In this document: one piece after another, positions 20,157 through 29,842 of the stretch
Layout of the letters: each line of letters begins with the position of its first letter
Numbering within the stretch: the stretch's first letter is position 1
Notes under the pieces: generated by a model
What the model saw: the letters and a program-made list of their open reading frames with translations, nothing else
Database searches by the model: none
Told to the model about the DNA's origin: nothing
Assembly: GCA_025927685.1 (NCBI GenBank)
Contig: JAICKX010000004.1
Coordinates: forward strand, 1-60,679
Length of the DNA stretch: 60,679 bases
DNA from: Thermoleophilia bacterium
GTDB taxonomy: Bacteria; Actinomycetota; Thermoleophilia; Gaiellales; JAICJC01
Reading direction: 5' to 3'
Program-made: the position numbers and the translations under genes

Positions 20157-20160
<4 letters not shown>

Positions 20161-22016
20161 AGCGGTTCGTCATCCTCGCCCTCACGGTCGCTGTCGCGGG
20201 ACTCACGGCTTCGGCGGCACCTGCCGCCGCGGGCGTCACGTCCGTGCGCCTCGCCCTCTCACCGGACGCGTCGTTCCCCCAGCGGCAGTTCACGCTCGTC
20301 CTGCCCCCGAAGGTCAAGCCGTACAACATCAGGCTCACCGAGAACGGGATTCCGGTCATCGCTCATCTGTCGCCGATCGTACAGCGGCGCGTGCCACTGA
20401 GCGTCGCCGTGCTGCTCGACACCAGCAACAGCATGCGCGGCCCTGCGCTGTCCGCTGCGGTCGACGCGGCCGAGACCCTGATCGCCGACAAGCCCGCGCG
20501 CGCCGAGGCCGCCGTGTTCGGTTTCGCCGAGCGGCCCTACCTGATCCACGGGTGGGCGTCGTCGCCCTCGACGTTCGATGCGTCCCTGGCGGCGATCGAG
20601 CCGTCCCAGGGGACGGCGATCTGGGATGCCGTCGGATTGGCAAGCCAGAGCGTGGGGGACCGTGACGGCGCAGCACGCGCGCTCGTGCTCCTGACGGACG
20701 GCAGTGATACGACCAGCGCCGCGACCGTCGACGAGGCAGCCCAGGCGGCGCGGAGCGCCCAGGCCCGCGTGTACGTCGTCGGGCTTCCGGGCGCGGAGAC
20801 GAACGAGGCCGGCCTTCGGCGACTGGTCGCCGAGACCGGTGGGGAGCTCATCCAGGTGCGATCGTTGAGCCAGCTGCGCCGCGTGTACGCCGGCGTGGCC
20901 GCCGAGCTGGCACAGCAGTACGTGCTCACCTACACATCGCAGCTGCGCGGCACGGGCCGCCCGGTGACGGTGAAGCTGAACGTCGACGGTCAGGCGGCCG
21001 AGGTGCACTATCGCATCCCTCCGACGTCGGCTGCTCCTGCGCCCTCGTCCACCGGCTGGTGGACGACGCAGCAGGCCTTGCAGGCGATCTCGGCGGGGGT
21101 CGGGCTGATCGTGCTCCTGAGCGCCTACCTGCTCATGCGGCCGAAGCGCACGAGCCCCATCCGCCGCATGCGAGGCTACATGCTCGGCGGGGCGGCCGAA
21201 GGTGCGCCGGACGTGGCCGCGCTGCTGCCGCCTCGGCCGCGCCGGAGCCTGCCGCGGCCGGGGCCGGGGAACGTCTGGGGCCGGTTCGCCGCGGACGTCG
21301 ACCGTGGTGACCTGAAGGCCCACCCGGTTGCGGTCCTGCTCCTCGGTATTGCGGCGGGCACCGCCGCGGCAGCGGTCGCCGGCTTCGCAGCCGGTCAGCC
21401 TCTGGCCATCGCCGCCGGGCCGATCGTGGGTGCCGTGGGCGTGTGGGTGTACGTCACGCACCGTGCATCCGCCTGGTACGCGCACTTCGACGCGTCGCTG
21501 CCGGACGCCCTTGCCGTGCTCGCCTCCTCGCTGCGAGCGGGACACTCGCTGCTTCAGGCCGTCGACCACGTCGCCGACGAAGCGGACGAGATGACGGCCC
21601 GTGAGTGGGGCGAGGTGGTGCGTCAGACGCGCCTCGGGATACCGGTCGAGGACGCGCTGGACGAGATGACGCACCGCGTGGCGAACACCGACCTGCAGTG
21701 GATCTCGCTCGTCGCCCGCGTCCAGCGGCAGATCGGCGGCAACATGGCCGAGATGTTCGACATCGTGGCGACCACGGTGCGCGACCGTCACCGCCTTCGC
21801 ACCCAGGTGCGGACGCTCACGGCACAGGGTCGCATGACCCGGTGGATCCTGACCCTTGCCCCGGTCGTGCTGGCCGGCCTCATGATGCTGGTCTCGCCGC
21901 TGTACATCAGCGGCTTTCTCAACAGCACGACCGGCCGTGCCCTGCTGGGGATCGCAGCCGTCCTGATCGTCATCGGCTCGATCTGGCTCAAGAAGATCGT
22001 CGAAATCGAGGTCTGA
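20157..22016 (+). CDS. tadB: Signal peptide-von Willebrand A domain fused to TadB (T2SSF platform protein)
   Basis: This 619-residue protein joins two domains usually on separate chains. Residues 1-25 are a signal peptide (KRFVILALTVAVAGLTASAA). Residues about 75-250 form a VWA domain with the MIDAS motif DTSNS, a Thr in GTAIWDAV and the late Asp in LLTDGSD. A membrane segment (about 310-330) is followed by a TadB/T2SF domain: paired hydrophobic segments, SLPDALAVLASSLRAGHSLL, IGGNMAEMFDIVATTVRDR, and two terminal membrane helices. Topology puts the VWA domain outside and TadB in the membrane. A metal-dependent adhesive or assembly-sensing part built into the pilus platform is my inference. 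Confidence 0.85.
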
Positions 22017-22021
22017 CGCTC

Positions 22022-22942
22022 ATGGTTGCCATCTCGTTCGTGCTTGCAGTGCTCGTCGGATCTGTGGTGCTCCTGATCGCGCACGCCGTTCGCCTCAGCC
22101 GAAGGGCCACGAGCGATGCGGTCAGCTCGTTGGCGCAGTACGGATACGGGGCCGAGACGGCGCCCTTGACGACGCAGCGCAACGCTCGGCGCGCCGAGGG
22201 GAACCTGGCGCTCGAGCGAACGCTCGCCCGAGTGGCCGGAAGGCTCAGCCCGGCGGACTACGAGCAGCGGTTGCGCCTGCGCCTGCTGCAAGCCGGTCTC
22301 TACACGTTCCGACCCAGCCGCTTCCTCATGATCCGGCTGCTGGCAGCGCTCACGCTCGGCGCCCTCGGGCTGCTGTACGCCGGCGGTGTCGCGAACCCGG
22401 TCATGAAGCTCGCGGCGCTGTTCGGCGCTCCGTTCCTGGGGTTCATGCTGCCGGACACGATGCTCTCCATGCGGATCAAGGGGCGCCATCGCCAGATCGA
22501 GCGGGCCTCGGCAGACCTCATCGACCTCCTGGCCATCACGGTACAGGCCGGGCTCGGCCTCGACCAGGCGCTGAAGGTGGCGGCCGAGCGCCTCGAGGGC
22601 CCGCTGGCCCAGGAGACGCGGCTGATGCTGAACGAGATCCGCGTCGGGCAGGGGCGCCAAGACGCGCTCAAGCGGCTGGCTGAGCGAGCCGACACGCCGA
22701 CGGTGCGGTCGTTCGCGAGGACGATGGCCCAGAGCGAATCCATGGGCGTGCCGATCGGGCAGACGCTCAAGGCGCTCGCCCAGGACGCGCGCCTTCGCAA
22801 GCGCCAGTACGCCGAGGAGCGCGCCCAGAAGGCGCCGATCCACATGGTGTTTCCGCTGGCAACGTGCTTCTTCCCGGCCATCCTGATCGTGGCCGGCGGC
22901 CCGGGCATCATCGCGCTCACGAAGGCGCTCGCCGTCGGATGA
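22022..22942 (+). CDS. tadC: TadC (T2SSF platform protein)
   Basis: A 306-residue type II secretion F-domain protein, partner of TadB. It has an N-terminal membrane helix, a linker rich in Arg, a pair of central hydrophobic segments, the conserved cytoplasmic block ASADLIDLLAITVQAGLGLDQ, then MAQSESMGVPIGQTLKALA and the terminal membrane segment with MVFPLATCFFPAILIV. The start ATG 22022 lies five bases after the VWA-TadB stop. The stop overlaps the following gene as ATGA, which ties the methyltransferase-like gene into the same transcript. Confidence 0.9.
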   Translation: MVAISFVLAVLVGSVVLLIAHAVRLSRRATSDAVSSLAQYGYGAETAPLTTQRNARRAEGNLALERTLARVAGRLSPADYEQRLRLRLLQAGLYTFRPSRFLMIRLLAALTLGALGLLYAGGVANPVMKLAALFGAPFLGFMLPDTMLSMRIKGRHRQIERASADLIDLLAITVQAGLGLDQALKVAAERLEGPLAQETRLMLNEIRVGQGRQDALKRLAERADTPTVRSFARTMAQSESMGVPIGQTLKALAQDARLRKRQYAEERAQKAPIHMVFPLATCFFPAILIVAGGPGIIALTKALAVG

Positions 22943-24017: not shown

Positions 24018-24755
24018 TCAGCCGGCGAGCGGCTGGGTGGGATCGGTCGGGGCCGGGAAGTAGGCCCGCCGCCGGGCGAGCGAGAGGCGCTCGCGGGCGT
24101 CGGCCAGAAGCTCGGCGCCGGACGTGTGGCCGCCGAGCTCGGCAAAGCCGGCGGCGCCGCACACGATCCCGCCCGTCACGAGCTCGCTCCCCGCGAGCGA
24201 CGCGCGCACGCGCTTGAACGCAGCCCGGGCCTCGAATTCTCCGGCGCGCGGAAAGAGCAGCGCGAACTGGTCGGCGCCGAGATGGCCCACGCGGTCGTCG
24301 TGACGGACGGCCGAGCGCGCCAGCGCGCCCACGTGCAGGATCAGGTCGCGCTGGTCGACCGGGCGCGGCCCGAGCTCGAGACCGTGCACCGTGAAGACCG
24401 CGATCGCCACCGCCTGGCTGCGCCAGCGGGCCGTGGCCACCGCGCGCTCCAGCTCGACGGCGAAGGTGGCGCTGTCGAGCAGCACCTCGTCGCCGGCGAC
24501 GCCGGCCGCCAGCGCCAGGGCCACGCAATGGCCGAGCGCGTCGGTGAACGCCTCCTGGTCGCGCGACGGCTCCCCGTCCCACTCCGCGACGAGCCCCTCG
24601 GGCGCGAGGCGCAGACGGCACGCCAGGCTCGCCTCCCGAGGCGCGGACTCGAGGATCCGGTCGATGACGCCCGCCTCGGCCTGCGGCGCGGCGAGTGCGG
24701 CCGCGGCGCGCGAAAGGACGTCCATCAGGATGTGGGCGTCATCCATGGCTCCCAT
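24018..24755 (-). CDS. Degenerate GGDEF-domain protein
   Basis: A 245-residue soluble protein whose C-terminal half follows the diguanylate cyclase fold, but the signature GG(D/E)EF reads GADQF (in RVGHLGADQFALLFPRAG). Several Mg2+/GTP contacts are therefore lost and it is probably not a cyclase. It may bind nucleotide as an effector or act as a scaffold. The N-terminal half is helical with no recognised sensor domain. The start is ATG 24755 or 24746. It lies 43 bases downstream of an HD-GYP gene on the same strand, so the two are probably co-transcribed. Confidence 0.7.
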   Translation of the reverse strand: MGAMDDAHILMDVLSRAAAALAAPQAEAGVIDRILESAPREASLACRLRLAPEGLVAEWDGEPSRDQEAFTDALGHCVALALAAGVAGDEVLLDSATFAVELERAVATARWRSQAVAIAVFTVHGLELGPRPVDQRDLILHVGALARSAVRHDDRVGHLGADQFALLFPRAGEFEARAAFKRVRASLAGSELVTGGIVCGAAGFAELGGHTSGAELLADARERLSLARRRAYFPAPTDPTQPLAG

Positions 24756-24798
24756 ATCGGGCGTGGACGCCCGCGGCTTGAGTCCCCGCTTCGTCGTA

Positions 24799-26157
24799 TC
24801 AGGCGACAGCGGCGCCCCAGGTGCGCCCACCGGAGGCATCCCCCTCAGCGGACACCACGCTGTGGTGCTGGGCCTGGATGGAGAAGTCGAACCCGCGCCC
24901 ACGCTGGTAGCGCACCGTCTCGGCCTCCAGGATCTCGATGAACGCATCGACCACCGGCGCCTCGAACTGGGTGCCCTTCCCCAGCACGAGCTGCTGGATT
25001 GCGCGCTCGGTGCTCATGGCGGCCCGGTACGGCCGGTCTGAGGTCATCGCGTTGTAGGAGTCCGCCACGGCGATGATCCTGGCCAGCCGCGGGATGCCGT
25101 CCCCGGCGAGGCCGTCGGGGTAGCCGGCGCCGTCCCAGCGCTCGTGGTGGCTTCGAACGACCAGCGCGATGTCGCTGTAGTCCTCCACCTCGGCCAGGAT
25201 GCGGGCGCCGATGGCGGGGTGCTCGCGCATCTCGGCCCACTCGTCGTCGTCGAGCGCCGAGCGCTTCTCGAGCAGCTCCGCGCGGAGCCCGATCTTGCCG
25301 ATGTCGTGGACGAGCGCCGCGAGGTGGATGCGCATCACCTCGTCCCGGGGCAGCCCCAGCGCCCGGGCGATGTCCCGCGAGTAGACGGCCACGGCGGCGG
25401 AATGGCCGGCGGTGTACTTGTCGCGCTCGTCGAGCGCCCGCACCATCGCCCCGGCGAAGCTGATGTTGACGAGGCGCAGCTGCTCGTTGGCCTCCTCCAG
25501 CCGCTCGTTCGCCTCCTCCAGCTCCTCGATCAGCTGCGCCTGGCGGGCGTGCATTCCGAAGCTCAGGTGGGCCGCGATCAGGGGCACGATGAAGAACGCC
25601 AGCACCTCGACGCCCACACGCCCGTACGTGAACGCGATCAGCGCCGTCACCGGCGCGTACAGGGCGACGCACACGGCCATCGACCCGCGCAGGAGCCGCC
25701 ACAGCTCGAGCGGGCGCGTGCCGTGGCGGATGAGGAGCGTGATGGCGGTGACGAAGAACTCCACCCCGGTCCCGACCACCGACGCGATCGCCGCGATGGC
25801 CACGAGCGCCACCAGCGACTTGGCGTCGAGGCCGCGCTCGGCGACGAGCGCCGTCCACCCCGCCGCGCAGCCCGCGAGCGACTTGCCCGAGAAGTAGATC
25901 AGGAACCGCTCGAGCGGCCCCTCCCGGTGCAGCATGGCGGCGCCGCCGACCAGCGCGGCCGCGGCCGGCCCGAAGAGCACCGCCGCGAGGGCGATCGCCA
26001 TGAACGAGACCGACACCTCCACACGCGGCGAGACGCGCATGCTGCGGCCCTCCGCCACCTGCGCGACGACCGCCAGCACGAGCACGACGTCCCATCGCCC
26101 CAGGCCGTGCAGGGACCACGATGCGGCCACGAGGCCCATCGCGAGCCCCGCGAGCAA
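24799..26157 (-). CDS. Membrane HD-GYP phosphodiesterase (c-di-GMP degradation)
   Basis: A 452-residue protein. Residues 1-210 hold about six hydrophobic segments forming a membrane sensor. A short coiled coil (LIEELEEANERLEEANEQLR) links it to an HD-GYP domain with HSAAVAVYSRDIARALGL, the metal-binding LVHDIGKIGLR, SHHERWDGAGYPDGLAG (the GYP motif), and RIIAVADSYNAMTSDRPYR. HD-GYP enzymes linearise cyclic-di-GMP to pGpG or GMP. All metal ligands appear intact, so it is probably active. The start is uncertain: TTG 26157 or ATG 26139. The degenerate GGDEF gene follows. Confidence 0.88.
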   Translation of the reverse strand: MLAGLAMGLVAASWSLHGLGRWDVVLVLAVVAQVAEGRSMRVSPRVEVSVSFMAIALAAVLFGPAAAALVGGAAMLHREGPLERFLIYFSGKSLAGCAAGWTALVAERGLDAKSLVALVAIAAIASVVGTGVEFFVTAITLLIRHGTRPLELWRLLRGSMAVCVALYAPVTALIAFTYGRVGVEVLAFFIVPLIAAHLSFGMHARQAQLIEELEEANERLEEANEQLRLVNISFAGAMVRALDERDKYTAGHSAAVAVYSRDIARALGLPRDEVMRIHLAALVHDIGKIGLRAELLEKRSALDDDEWAEMREHPAIGARILAEVEDYSDIALVVRSHHERWDGAGYPDGLAGDGIPRLARIIAVADSYNAMTSDRPYRAAMSTERAIQQLVLGKGTQFEAPVVDAFIEILEAETVRYQRGRGFDFSIQAQHHSVVSAEGDASGGRTWGAAVA

Positions 26158-26221: not shown

Positions 26222-26250
26222 TTGACATAGCGCGTTCGAGTAGCTAGTGT
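26222..26250 (+). promoter_or_regulatory. Strong sigma70-type promoter
   Basis: TTGACA (26222-26227), exactly 17 nt, TAGTGT (26245-26250). It is the best-spaced promoter I see in the window. The predicted start near 26257 falls at a CCCC-GAAA-GGGG hairpin with a GNRA-type loop (26254-26265). Confidence 0.7.
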
Positions 26251-26296
26251 CTCCCCCGAAAGGGGTACAGGCGTGACGCAAGAGGAGAGGATTTCC

Positions 26297-26317
26297 ATGG
26301 GTATCAAGGGCTGGTAG
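26297..26317 (+). CDS. Six-codon leader ORF (MGIKGW)
   Basis: The sequence ATG-GGT-ATC-AAG-GGC-TGG-TAG is preceded by a good AGGAGAGG ribosome-binding site at 26283-26290, 6 nt away, and by the promoter at 26222. It is too short to be a protein in its own right. It may be a translated leader peptide controlling what follows, or a chance ATG after a purine-rich stretch. No repeats of a regulatory codon are visible. Confidence 0.35.
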   Translation: MGIKGW

Positions 26318-26790
26318 GGACAAAGGTCGGCATCGGCGTTATCGGTATGCCGGGGGCGGAGGTTGAGGCCCAGTGCATGCCGAGGGATTCCGGGCAGGGG
26401 CTCGGAATCCCCGCCGCCAGCGGATCTGATCGCGCCCCTGCGAGACGGCAGCGCCCAAGGCGCCGCCTCGCGGGGGCGCGGTGCGTTTGGAAAGAAGCCG
26501 GTGAGCGCCTGGAGCGAGCGCCCACCGGAGGACGGAAAACGCCGGCTCGAACGCCGGTGGAGCGCGATGCGCCGGCACCTCGCGCGCGGGCGCGGCGGCA
26601 ATCGCTGTTTCCAGTCTCGGTATCGGTGTCCGGGCGTGCCCGCGCATCCCCCGCAGGGGTGGCGCCGGAGTGCTCAAGCCGGGCACCGTACGCGCCGATA
26701 TCAGCTTGGGGCGACAATCACGCCGCCGGCACGCCCATCGCCCGCCCGGTGGCTCCATCCCGGTTCTCTTCCCTTCACGAGGTCTGACAC
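26318..26790 (+). ncRNA. Structured non-coding stretch, candidate RNA leader or ncRNA
   Basis: This 473-base gap lies downstream of a strong promoter and has no convincing gene on either strand. It can fold into several consecutive hairpins. These are GGCAT/ATGCC (26329-26351), GGGATTCCG/CGGAATCCC (26384-26411, 9 bp perfect) and a 14-bp stem of 26431-26444 with 26467-26480 (one G-U). Next come an 11-position stem of 26498-26508 with 26518-26528 (one mismatch) and GGTG-ga-GCGC/GCGC-cgg-CACC (26556-26579). I checked it against what I know of RNase P RNA, tmRNA, SRP RNA, cobalamin and c-di-GMP riboswitches and saw no match. It ends at the coiled-coil gene. Confidence 0.4.
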
Positions 26791-28959
26791 ATGAGCGACG
26801 CCGAGGCACAGCCGGAACAGCCCGCCCGCGACGAGTCCGCAAGCGGGCTCCGCAGGGCGATGGAGCACCGGATGGCCGCGCTCCAGGAGGCCGAGGAGCG
26901 CCTCCAACGCGAGCAGGCGGCGCTCCAGGAGCAGGCCAAGGTCGTCTTCGCCGAGCGCGAGGCCCGGCTGGCCCGGCGCGAGCGCGAGCTCGCAAAGCGC
27001 GAGGCCGCGCTGGCCGTCAGCGAAGGCATCGCCTCCTCCAACACCGCCGGCGACGTCGGTGCGGCCGAGCGCGCCCGGCTCGAGGCCGGGGAGGCCCGCG
27101 TCTCCGAGCGCCAGACCGAGCTCGACCGGCGCGAGCAGGAGCTCGCACAGCGCGAGCGCGACCTCGCGGCGGCCGCCGCCGCGGCGCCCTCCCCCACGTC
27201 GGCCGGCGACTCGTCTCCTGTTGACAACCGCCGCGTGCAGGAGCTCGAGGAGTCTGTCACCACGCTCGAGCGCCAGGTCGAGCACATGAAGAGCCAGCGT
27301 GAGCAGGTGGAACGCGAGCGCGACTCGCTGGTCGATCAGCTGCGCGACCGCGGCGCCCTCGGATCGGCCGAGCTGGCCGAGCGGGAGGCCCGCCTGTCCA
27401 CGCTCGACCAGGAGCTGGCCGACCGCGAGCACCGCGCCAAGAAGGTCGAGAAGGTCATCAGCCAGAAGGAGCTCCACGTGGACGGCGTCCGCGCCGACCT
27501 GGAGCAGCGCGCGGCCGAGATGACCGAGAACGAGCAGGCGCTGGCCGAGCGGGCCGCCGCCGTCGAGGCCCGGGCCACCGCCGCCGAGGCGTCCGAGGCC
27601 GAGACCCGCGCCCGGCTCGAGCAGCTCGAGGCGCGGGAGGCCGAGATGGCACGCTCGTTCGACGAGCTCGCCACCGCGCAGACGTCGCTCAAGGAGGCCA
27701 CCGAGGCCCTCGAGCGCCGCTCCAGCATGATCGAGGCCGCGGAGTCCAAGGTCGCGGCCATGCACGCCGACACCGACCGCAAGGTCGCCGACGCGGAGCA
27801 GAGGATCGCATCGCTGGCCGATCGCGAGAAGGAGCTCCGGCACGTCGAGGAGCGCCTGGCCGAGCTCGACGCGCGCGAGCGCGAGGTGAGCGAGGCCGTG
27901 GCGAAGCTCGAGGAGCTCGAGCGCGAGCTGCGTGACATCGACGGGCGCCGCCAGGCGGCGGAGCGCGCCGCCGAGCGCGCCGAGGCCGCTCAGCGCCAGC
28001 TCGAGGAGCGCCGGGCAGAGGCCGAGGCGCGGATCGCCGAGTGCGACGCCCGCGTCGTCGAGCTCGCCGACAAGGAGCGCCGCCTGAGCGAGATCAACGC
28101 CCGGCTGGCGGAGTTCGACGTCCGCCAGGAGAAGCTCCAGCGGGCCGAGGCAGAGATCGCGTCCGACCGGTCGAGCGCCGAGACCATGGAGCGTGAGGCG
28201 AGCCGGCTCCACAAGCAGGCCGAGCGCATGCTGGCCGACGCCGAGCAGCACGCCGCCCAGCAGGTCGAGCGGCTGGCCGCCGACCTCCGCGAGCGCGAGG
28301 CCCGGCAGTCGGTCGCCGAGGCCGACCTCGAGCGCCGCGAGGCCCGCCTCGACCGCCGCCAGGACACCCTGGACGAGCGCGAGCGCGACATCGACAACCG
28401 TGCCGACGCCGTCGAGCTGCGCGACGAGCAGCTCAAGGAGCGCGAGGCAGACGTGGCCCGGCTCACGGTGCGCGCCGACCGGGTCGAGGCCGAGCTCGAC
28501 GCCCAGCGCTCGGCCCTGGCCGACGCCGAGGACGCGGTCGCCCGCGAGCGGGCCGTCCTCCAGCGGCGGATGGCCGAGATCGAGCAGCGCGAGGCCGCCC
28601 AGCGCACCGAGCTGGAAGAGGCGGTGCGCAGCGCCGCCGAGGCCGGCAGCGGGCGCAAGGGCCTGCTCGGGCGCGGCGGCGGGAAGTCGGTCGAGGAGGT
28701 CCACCAGGCGCTGCGGACCAAGGAGGCCGAGCTTCAGGCCCAGGAGCGGCGCCTCTCCGAGCTGAGCAGCGCGCTCCAGCGGCGCGAGTCGGACCTCGAC
28801 GCCTACGCCCGGAAGCTCCAGCGCAGCGCGGCGGTGGAAGCGGCCGGCGTGTCGGTGCGGCCGTCGGACTTCACCGTCGAGGAGCCGGGGGGGCGCGACG
28901 CGCCCCGGGGCGACGACGACGATCCGACGGGCAAGCGCCTCCAGTTCTGGTCGCGTTAG
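26791..28959 (+). CDS. Long coiled-coil (filament-like) protein
   Basis: A 722-residue protein that is almost entirely alpha-helical coiled coil, dominated by Glu, Arg, Ala and Leu. Recurring units such as EREARLARRERELAKREAAL and ERDIDNRADAVELRDEQLKE occur throughout. A break at about residues 615-635 (GRKGLLGRGGGKS) precedes a final helical stretch and an acidic tail (DDDDPTGKRLQFWSR). There is no signal peptide or membrane segment. The architecture is like bacterial intermediate-filament-type proteins such as Scy or FilP, but I cannot claim homology. A cytoplasmic scaffold role is inference. It follows the structured leader. Confidence 0.65.
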   Translation: MSDAEAQPEQPARDESASGLRRAMEHRMAALQEAEERLQREQAALQEQAKVVFAEREARLARRERELAKREAALAVSEGIASSNTAGDVGAAERARLEAGEARVSERQTELDRREQELAQRERDLAAAAAAAPSPTSAGDSSPVDNRRVQELEESVTTLERQVEHMKSQREQVERERDSLVDQLRDRGALGSAELAEREARLSTLDQELADREHRAKKVEKVISQKELHVDGVRADLEQRAAEMTENEQALAERAAAVEARATAAEASEAETRARLEQLEAREAEMARSFDELATAQTSLKEATEALERRSSMIEAAESKVAAMHADTDRKVADAEQRIASLADREKELRHVEERLAELDAREREVSEAVAKLEELERELRDIDGRRQAAERAAERAEAAQRQLEERRAEAEARIAECDARVVELADKERRLSEINARLAEFDVRQEKLQRAEAEIASDRSSAETMEREASRLHKQAERMLADAEQHAAQQVERLAADLREREARQSVAEADLERREARLDRRQDTLDERERDIDNRADAVELRDEQLKEREADVARLTVRADRVEAELDAQRSALADAEDAVARERAVLQRRMAEIEQREAAQRTELEEAVRSAAEAGSGRKGLLGRGGGKSVEEVHQALRTKEAELQAQERRLSELSSALQRRESDLDAYARKLQRSAAVEAAGVSVRPSDFTVEEPGGRDAPRGDDDDPTGKRLQFWSR

Positions 28960-29020: not shown

Positions 29021-29842
29021 GTGCTTCGGCCGAACGAGCGCCAGCGCCGCCGACCCGCGATCGCGGTCGCTGCCGTCGCCGCGTACGGAGCCGCGTGGAT
29101 GCTCCCGGCCTCCAGCCGGCCCGGATGCCTGGCCGTCGCGGTGGGGCTGGCGTGGCTCGCCGGCGCCCGCCTGGGCGGGCTCCTCATGAGCGCCGCGGTG
29201 CTCATCGCGCCCGTCGGGGTCCCGGCCCGGATCGGGCTGGCGGTCGCCTCGGCGCTGGGCGGCGAGCTCCTGGAGCACGAGGCCCGGGCAGGGCGCGAGC
29301 TGCGCACCCGGTCGTTCACCGACCGGCTGACCGGGCTTCGCAACTACGACTTCTTCTCGGAGGCCCTCGATGCGGAGCTGGCGCGTGTGCGCCGCTACGG
29401 AGGCTGCACGACGCTCGTCCTCATCGACCTCGACCGGTTCAAGGCCTACAACGACCGCCACGGCCACGGAGCCGGGAACCGGCTCCTGGCGTCCGTCGGC
29501 CGGGCCCTGCTCTACGAGAAGCGCGACGCCGACATCGCCGCTCGCTTCGGCGGCGAGGAGTTCGCCGTCCTGGTACCCGGCCGCGCGGCCGACGGCGTCG
29601 TCCTGGCCGATCGCCTGCGGCGGGCGATCTCGGAGGTGCCGGCGTCCCGACTCGACCGGCACGAGATCCCCGACATCGTGACCGCCTCGGCGGGCGTCGC
29701 AACGTTCCCGCTCGACGCACGCGACGGTACGGAGCTCTTCGAGCTCGCCGACCGGGCGCTCTACGAGGCCAAACGCCGGGGGCGCGACCGGGTCGTCACC
29801 GCGGCCGAGCTCGGCTCGGGCCGCCTGACCCGCGCCGTGTAG
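29021..29842 (+). CDS. Membrane-bound diguanylate cyclase (GGDEF)
   Basis: A 273-residue protein with two or three N-terminal hydrophobic segments (to about residue 80) and a GGDEF domain. It has the DxLTGLxN opener DRLTGLRNYDFF, the metal Asp in LIDLDRFKAYND and the active-site loop RFGGEEFAVL. The product-inhibition I-site RDAD lies exactly five residues before GGEEF, so the enzyme is expected to make cyclic-di-GMP from two GTP under feedback control. It lies between an HD-GYP protein and an RsiG-type c-di-GMP sensor. The GTG start at 29021 follows a -10 box by 6 nt. Confidence 0.9.
   Translation: MLRPNERQRRRPAIAVAAVAAYGAAWMLPASSRPGCLAVAVGLAWLAGARLGGLLMSAAVLIAPVGVPARIGLAVASALGGELLEHEARAGRELRTRSFTDRLTGLRNYDFFSEALDAELARVRRYGGCTTLVLIDLDRFKAYNDRHGHGAGNRLLASVGRALLYEKRDADIAARFGGEEFAVLVPGRAADGVVLADRLRRAISEVPASRLDRHEIPDIVTASAGVATFPLDARDGTELFELADRALYEAKRRGRDRVVTAAELGSGRLTRAV

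Follow-up and report, generated by a model that had tools for sequence, protein, structure and literature searches.

The window analysed here is a stretch of 60,679 nucleotides from a contig of a Thermoleophilia bacterium. The region of interest is bounded on one side by an HD-GYP gene of the c-di-GMP phosphodiesterase type (24802-26157, minus strand), whose true start may lie nearer 26184, and on the other by a gene for a 722-residue coiled-coil protein (26791-28959, plus strand), followed by a GGDEF diguanylate cyclase gene (29021-29842, plus strand). Head-to-head with the HD-GYP gene stands a six-codon micro-ORF, ATGGGTATCAAGGGCTGGTAG (26297-26317, plus strand), which reads MGIKGW-stop. The order HD-GYP, coiled-coil, GGDEF is retained in the relatives of the window's family (f1, five genomes), except that in G001 the contig stops before a GGDEF gene could be recovered. 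Among the genomes tested, the coiled-coil gene is restricted to this family. The RsiG c-di-GMP motif is absent from its product. Elsewhere in the window (20157-22942) lie two T2SSF pilus genes (TadB/TadC-like), the first of which, the only one submitted to Pfam, has an additional von Willebrand A domain fused at its N-terminal end.

The micro-ORF is preceded by a sigma-70-type promoter (26222-26250, plus strand) comprising TTGACA (26222-26227), a 17-nt spacer, and TAGTGT (26245-26250), as reported by the initial annotation. Alignment of the five intergenic regions of the family shows TTGACAT to be unchanged in all five genomes, with TAGTGT, TATGCT, TAAGCT, TATCTT, and TATCTT as -10 elements, and the promoter scores above chance in G001, G003, and G004. 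Immediately 3' of the -10 comes the palindrome CTCCCCCGAAAGGGGTAC (CTCCCCC-GAAA-GGGGTAC; 26251-26268, no strand assigned), which had been described as a GNRA-capped hairpin. The palindrome itself is kept in 5/5 genomes with the consensus TCCCYC-N4-GGGG, but its loop is variable (GTTC, ATTC, or AATC in relatives) and is of GNRA type only in the window's genome. In f3, a sister family of the same order, the palindrome is located in most loci between the -35 (TTGnnn) and the -10 (TATAC), ahead of where the transcript should begin. Since both positions suit a DNA-binding site better than an RNA hairpin, the palindrome is probably an operator; that the LuxR-type regulator next door binds it would be a guess. 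The five-region alignment also contains a second CCCC-N4-GGGG palindrome, GCATCCCCCGCAGGGGTGGC (26644-26663, no strand assigned).

The Shine-Dalgarno sequence GAGGAGAGG (26283-26291, plus strand) is purine-rich in the five family genomes, whose ORFs read MGIKGW, MPIKGW, MPIKGW, MSSKVW, and MSSKIW. The good ribosome-binding site and the six-codon ORF noted initially are therefore both present and conserved, and the whole 5' block (TTGACAT, N17, TAnnnT, TCCCYC-N4-GGGG, Shine-Dalgarno, ORF) is retained in 5/5 genomes. The pattern GGGGNAC-N15-40-ATG-N6-AAR-N3-TGG-TRR returns one match in each of them and none in the 124 other genomes of the order (129 in total), while a control pattern returns no match. 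Pfam and NCBIfam profiles report no match for the micropeptides, the long members being those queried (20-residue minimum, one query padded by two residues), and we found no description of the micropeptide in the literature. This conservation indicates that positions 26222-26317 hold a real tiny gene, the shortest form of its family.

That family, whose members mostly share a [K/R]-x-Trp-stop end, extends across the order, in which 45 micro-ORFs of 6-28 codons stand head-to-head with the same HD-GYP gene. In f3 the micro-ORF lies at the same place upstream of the HD-GYP orthologs and is usually longer, as exemplified by MRKSVVRLVSRATIAGGLKGW, MRIAPRVIAALSAAVSVATVAGQLKAW, and MQRAGKIW, whereas the short forms count 6 residues in f1 and 8-10 in g7. 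An additional candidate, MHRSIIKLITYASTRGGGVLW, is found in G031 (L038), outside the 45. Next to the f3 micro-ORF comes a convergent, highly conserved LuxR-type (GerE) gene in 38/38 loci with that flank, ending 60-220 nt past the micro-ORF stop; in f1 this position is occupied by the coiled-coil gene, and no GerE gene accompanies the ORF. The f3 GerE product (minus strand, as in L022) is a small regulator with 83-98% identity over its DNA-binding part, always convergent to the micro-ORF. In L014-L033 and L115-L142, clusters of TTATCCACA, TTGTCCACA, and TTTTCCACAG, often as inverted pairs, occur about 15-100 nt past the micro-ORF stop; they resemble DnaA boxes and may be DnaA sites or merely the arms of 3' hairpins.

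In these 45 micro-ORFs, which come from genomes related to one another, every peptide terminates in Trp, followed by UAG (29) or UAA (16) as stop. Position -3 is Lys in 30 and Arg in 9, the two being exchanged among members and Lys being encoded by either of its codons, and is neither in six sister-family members; this 39/45 is biased, as the first-found loci were partly chosen by a KxW search, and the unbiased figure is 18/24 in a new set. Conserved C-terminal residues in a conserved stop context (TGG-TAR in 45/45) are what is expected of a ribosome-arrest peptide. The new set was obtained with a sequence-only model of 14 f3 promoters and 5'UTRs, from which the ORF was excluded to avoid circularity, run on 399 genomes of the class. 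Its strong matches are confined to this order, one per genome, and 24/24 new loci with readable downstream sequence display, where one is expected, a micro-ORF that terminates in Trp-stop (L110, interrupted by a contig end, is outside the 24); six weak matches have no micro-ORF. In the compared pairs, differences by codon position amount to.28/.16/.43, third positions differing most, which indicates that selection acts at the peptide level. TGA is used as stop in 0/45 micro-ORFs, versus 14/35 for the adjacent HD-GYP gene and 4/38 for GerE; given shared ancestry and the low TGA use in GerE, this avoidance is only moderate evidence.

Downstream of the micro-ORF, the remaining ~470 bases were initially described as a chain of stable hairpins, devoid of any convincing gene or known RNA class, and possibly forming a new structured non-coding RNA. 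The hairpins do exist, although most are lineage-specific. The one at 26384-26411 (plus strand, 12-bp stem) is not found in relatives in the five-region alignment. The strong, long-stemmed hairpin at 26429-26482 (plus strand) has counterparts at about this position throughout the five genomes, its upper stem being rewritten with pairing kept in G001/G002. By its position it resembles a terminator, but it is only terminator-like since it has no canonical U-tract. A hairpin pair at 26498-26557 (no strand assigned) is common to G003/G004 and scores on the minus strand as intrinsic terminators with tails CTTCTTTCCA and CGTTTTCCGT; its identification as a multicopy element was discarded, as it is single-copy in G003 and G004 and the G003 query returns no significant match in G000-G002. 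Folding is modestly better than in shuffles for the region (z of -2.0 to -2.2; about -2.2 for the 473 nt from the stop to the coiled-coil gene), and the best 120-nt window, 26317-26436, reaches a z of -3.3 (control mean -0.06, sd 1.06). ORFs of 128-146 codons in this stretch have no counterpart in relatives, so that the micro-ORF is its sole coding part. Rfam analysis of the window and 19 related loci reports nothing above the gathering score except tRNA elsewhere in the window, and only chance-level matches on the window up to E=10. The whole stretch yielded no sequence homolog, relatives giving only 27-65-bp matches (E ~1e-4), and much of it aligns poorly among the five genomes. The absence of a convincing gene and of a known RNA class is thereby borne out, but a single new structured RNA across these ~470 bases is not, as they have no homolog as a whole and most of their hairpins are lineage-specific. 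The 5' block with its micro-ORF is conserved in 5/5 genomes, whereas the hairpin-rich remainder mostly is not. This remainder is a mixture of promoters and terminator-like hairpins with GC-rich sequence peculiar to the lineage.

Taken with its own sigma-70-type promoter, operator-like palindrome, and ribosome-binding site, the micro-ORF is best read as a stand-alone gene of the [K/R]-x-Trp-UAG/UAA family whose peptide probably acts mainly while being made. The ribosome would pause with Trp in its P site and UAR in its A site, and the pause would set the folding or the stability of the micro-ORF's own short transcript, without the micro-ORF leading the coiled-coil gene. We infer action at termination from the invariant Trp-UAR, from the survival of KxW-stop alone in the six-codon forms, and from the precedent of hexapeptide arrest (PMC10314930); the shrinkage of the ORF to six codons with only KxW-stop retained fits a role of the nascent chain. 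A structured element with covariation, which begins ~15 nt past the stop in sister-family loci, also speaks for this reading, although it cannot be recognised in the window. The product is likely a termination-linked regulatory micropeptide of a c-di-GMP/pilus locus. What points to stalling is the conservation of residues and stop codon, and a free peptide could also need a fixed C-terminus.

The main rival to action at termination is a peptide that is active in its free form, as a signal or effector in the cytoplasm or after export; its C-terminal GxxKxW would be recognised by a partner, for instance the f3 LuxR-type regulator. Conservation at the amino-acid level with synonymous change agrees with this, as do the very conserved GerE regulator nearby and the make-up of most long members, which are cationic and exhibit a hydrophobic stretch before their conserved G-x-x-K-x-W end. 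Yet the f1 and g7 forms have no export segment, the stop is limited to UAR, and the f1 ORF is not accompanied by a GerE gene, which makes a free peptide a serious but rather unlikely candidate. Type I toxin peptides and other small amphipathic membrane peptides are a known class for comparison. Part of the micropeptide family, cationic peptides of 20-28 residues with a hydrophobic stretch, resembles them, whereas members of 6-10 residues cannot span a membrane and no antisense RNA pair was identified.

Unlikely as well is a trans-acting dual-function RNA, a short transcript that would be a small RNA also encoding the peptide. In f3 a different 3' structured element begins ~15 nt after the micro-ORF stop, the 3' flank is in several close pairs as conserved as the ORF, with covarying helices, and classic terminator sequences follow further on in some loci. 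However, the covariation is modest and uncorrected for relatedness (16 pairs, score 0.186 versus 0.131 in shuffles, 0/500), no targets are known, and neither the window nor its family has a recognisable form of the element.

The initial annotation had also proposed a translation-coupled attenuator, in which stalling on MGIKGW alters the downstream hairpins and allows read-through into the coiled-coil and GGDEF genes. The short ORF with its ribosome-binding site, its location on the same strand as the coiled-coil gene in five family members, the strong hairpin that separates the two in every family genome, and the precedent of msrDL (PMC10314930) would all suit such a leader. As to mutually exclusive terminator and antiterminator structures, competing helices are possible in the f3 3'UTR and are not conserved in the window's family. 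However, the sense gene expected directly downstream is missing in f3, where the micro-ORF is kept although the sole nearby downstream gene is convergent (38/38), and in f1 the coiled-coil/GGDEF pair has its own putative sigma-28/FliA-WhiG-type promoter, CTCAAG-N15-GCCGATA (26673-26700, plus strand, no mismatch), with CTCAAG-N15-[GT]CCGATA ahead of the coiled-coil gene in 5/5 genomes. The micro-ORF is therefore not a conserved leader, and, the gap hairpins not being conserved as a set either, the attenuator is quite improbable. As for a functionless short ORF, six codons are few and GC-rich DNA readily folds and opens ORFs, but Trp-stop at the predicted place in 24/24 independent loci, the 5/5 conservation in the family, and the codon-position signal make chance hardly credible.

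Action at termination has known counterparts. TnaC, a 24-residue leader of tnaAB ending in Pro-UGA, shares with other termination-stalling leaders a C-terminus-dependent pausing at the stop, which is the type of mechanism proposed here, whereas neither its length, its Pro-UGA end, nor its position ahead of tnaAB holds for the micro-ORF. Closer in size, the msrDL leader peptide MYLIFM is a hexapeptide that leads msrD; in the presence of macrolides it blocks release factors and thereby stalls at its stop codon (PMC10314930). Both are six-codon ORFs, and activity at the stop codon is documented for msrDL and proposed here; the present locus differs by its sequence ending in Trp and by having neither a resistance gene nor a conserved downstream sense gene.

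The locus is linked to WhiG/sigma-28 and c-di-GMP, and probably related to pili. The type IV pili of Rubrobacter are driven by WhiG, itself controlled by c-di-GMP, through promoters of the same type (PMC8325347). Shared with that WhiG-RsiG-c-di-GMP switch and its pilus regulon are the -35 (CTCAAG/CTAAAG), the 15-nt spacer, the -10 (GCCGATA), a FliA/WhiG sigma factor (above cut-off in 9/9 genomes tested), c-di-GMP enzymes, and apparent CpaB and TadE-type pilus genes, named by eye, which in the window's family also follow a sigma-28/WhiG-type promoter. The f3 GerE gene is preceded by the same promoter type in most loci. Unlike the WhiG regulon promoters, that of the micro-ORF is of sigma-70 type, and we found no mention of a micropeptide in the Rubrobacter study (PMC8325347).

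Genes of six codons escape annotation, and comparison shows here one that is under selection, a gene of 20-28 codons in relatives being reduced to its essential few residues and stop codon. If it does act at termination, a short arrest motif would be added, in an uncultured actinobacterium-like lineage, together with a peptide-level input beside the c-di-GMP/WhiG pilus circuit. It is conceivable, although we advance it tentatively, that [K/R]xW-UAR represents a new termination-arrest motif for which six codons can suffice and which, unlike known leaders, is untied to a downstream gene; it might adjust a short regulatory RNA within this circuit. The window would then hold a protein-coding gene among the smallest for which selection has been shown.

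Altogether the window contains six sigma-28/WhiG-type sites with up to 2 mismatches, as compared with ~1 expected in shuffles. A weak reverse promoter is directed toward the HD-GYP gene (26340-26367, minus strand, 2 mismatches), with a similar site in 5/5 family genomes; if it is real, the HD-GYP message would start within the micro-ORF transcript, with ~70 nt of antisense overlap (26262-26333). A sigma-28/WhiG-type site with one mismatch (24755-24782, minus strand) ends ~9 nt short of an ATG (near 24746) that is in frame with the minus-strand ORF 24018-24947, and could yield a near-leaderless transcript.
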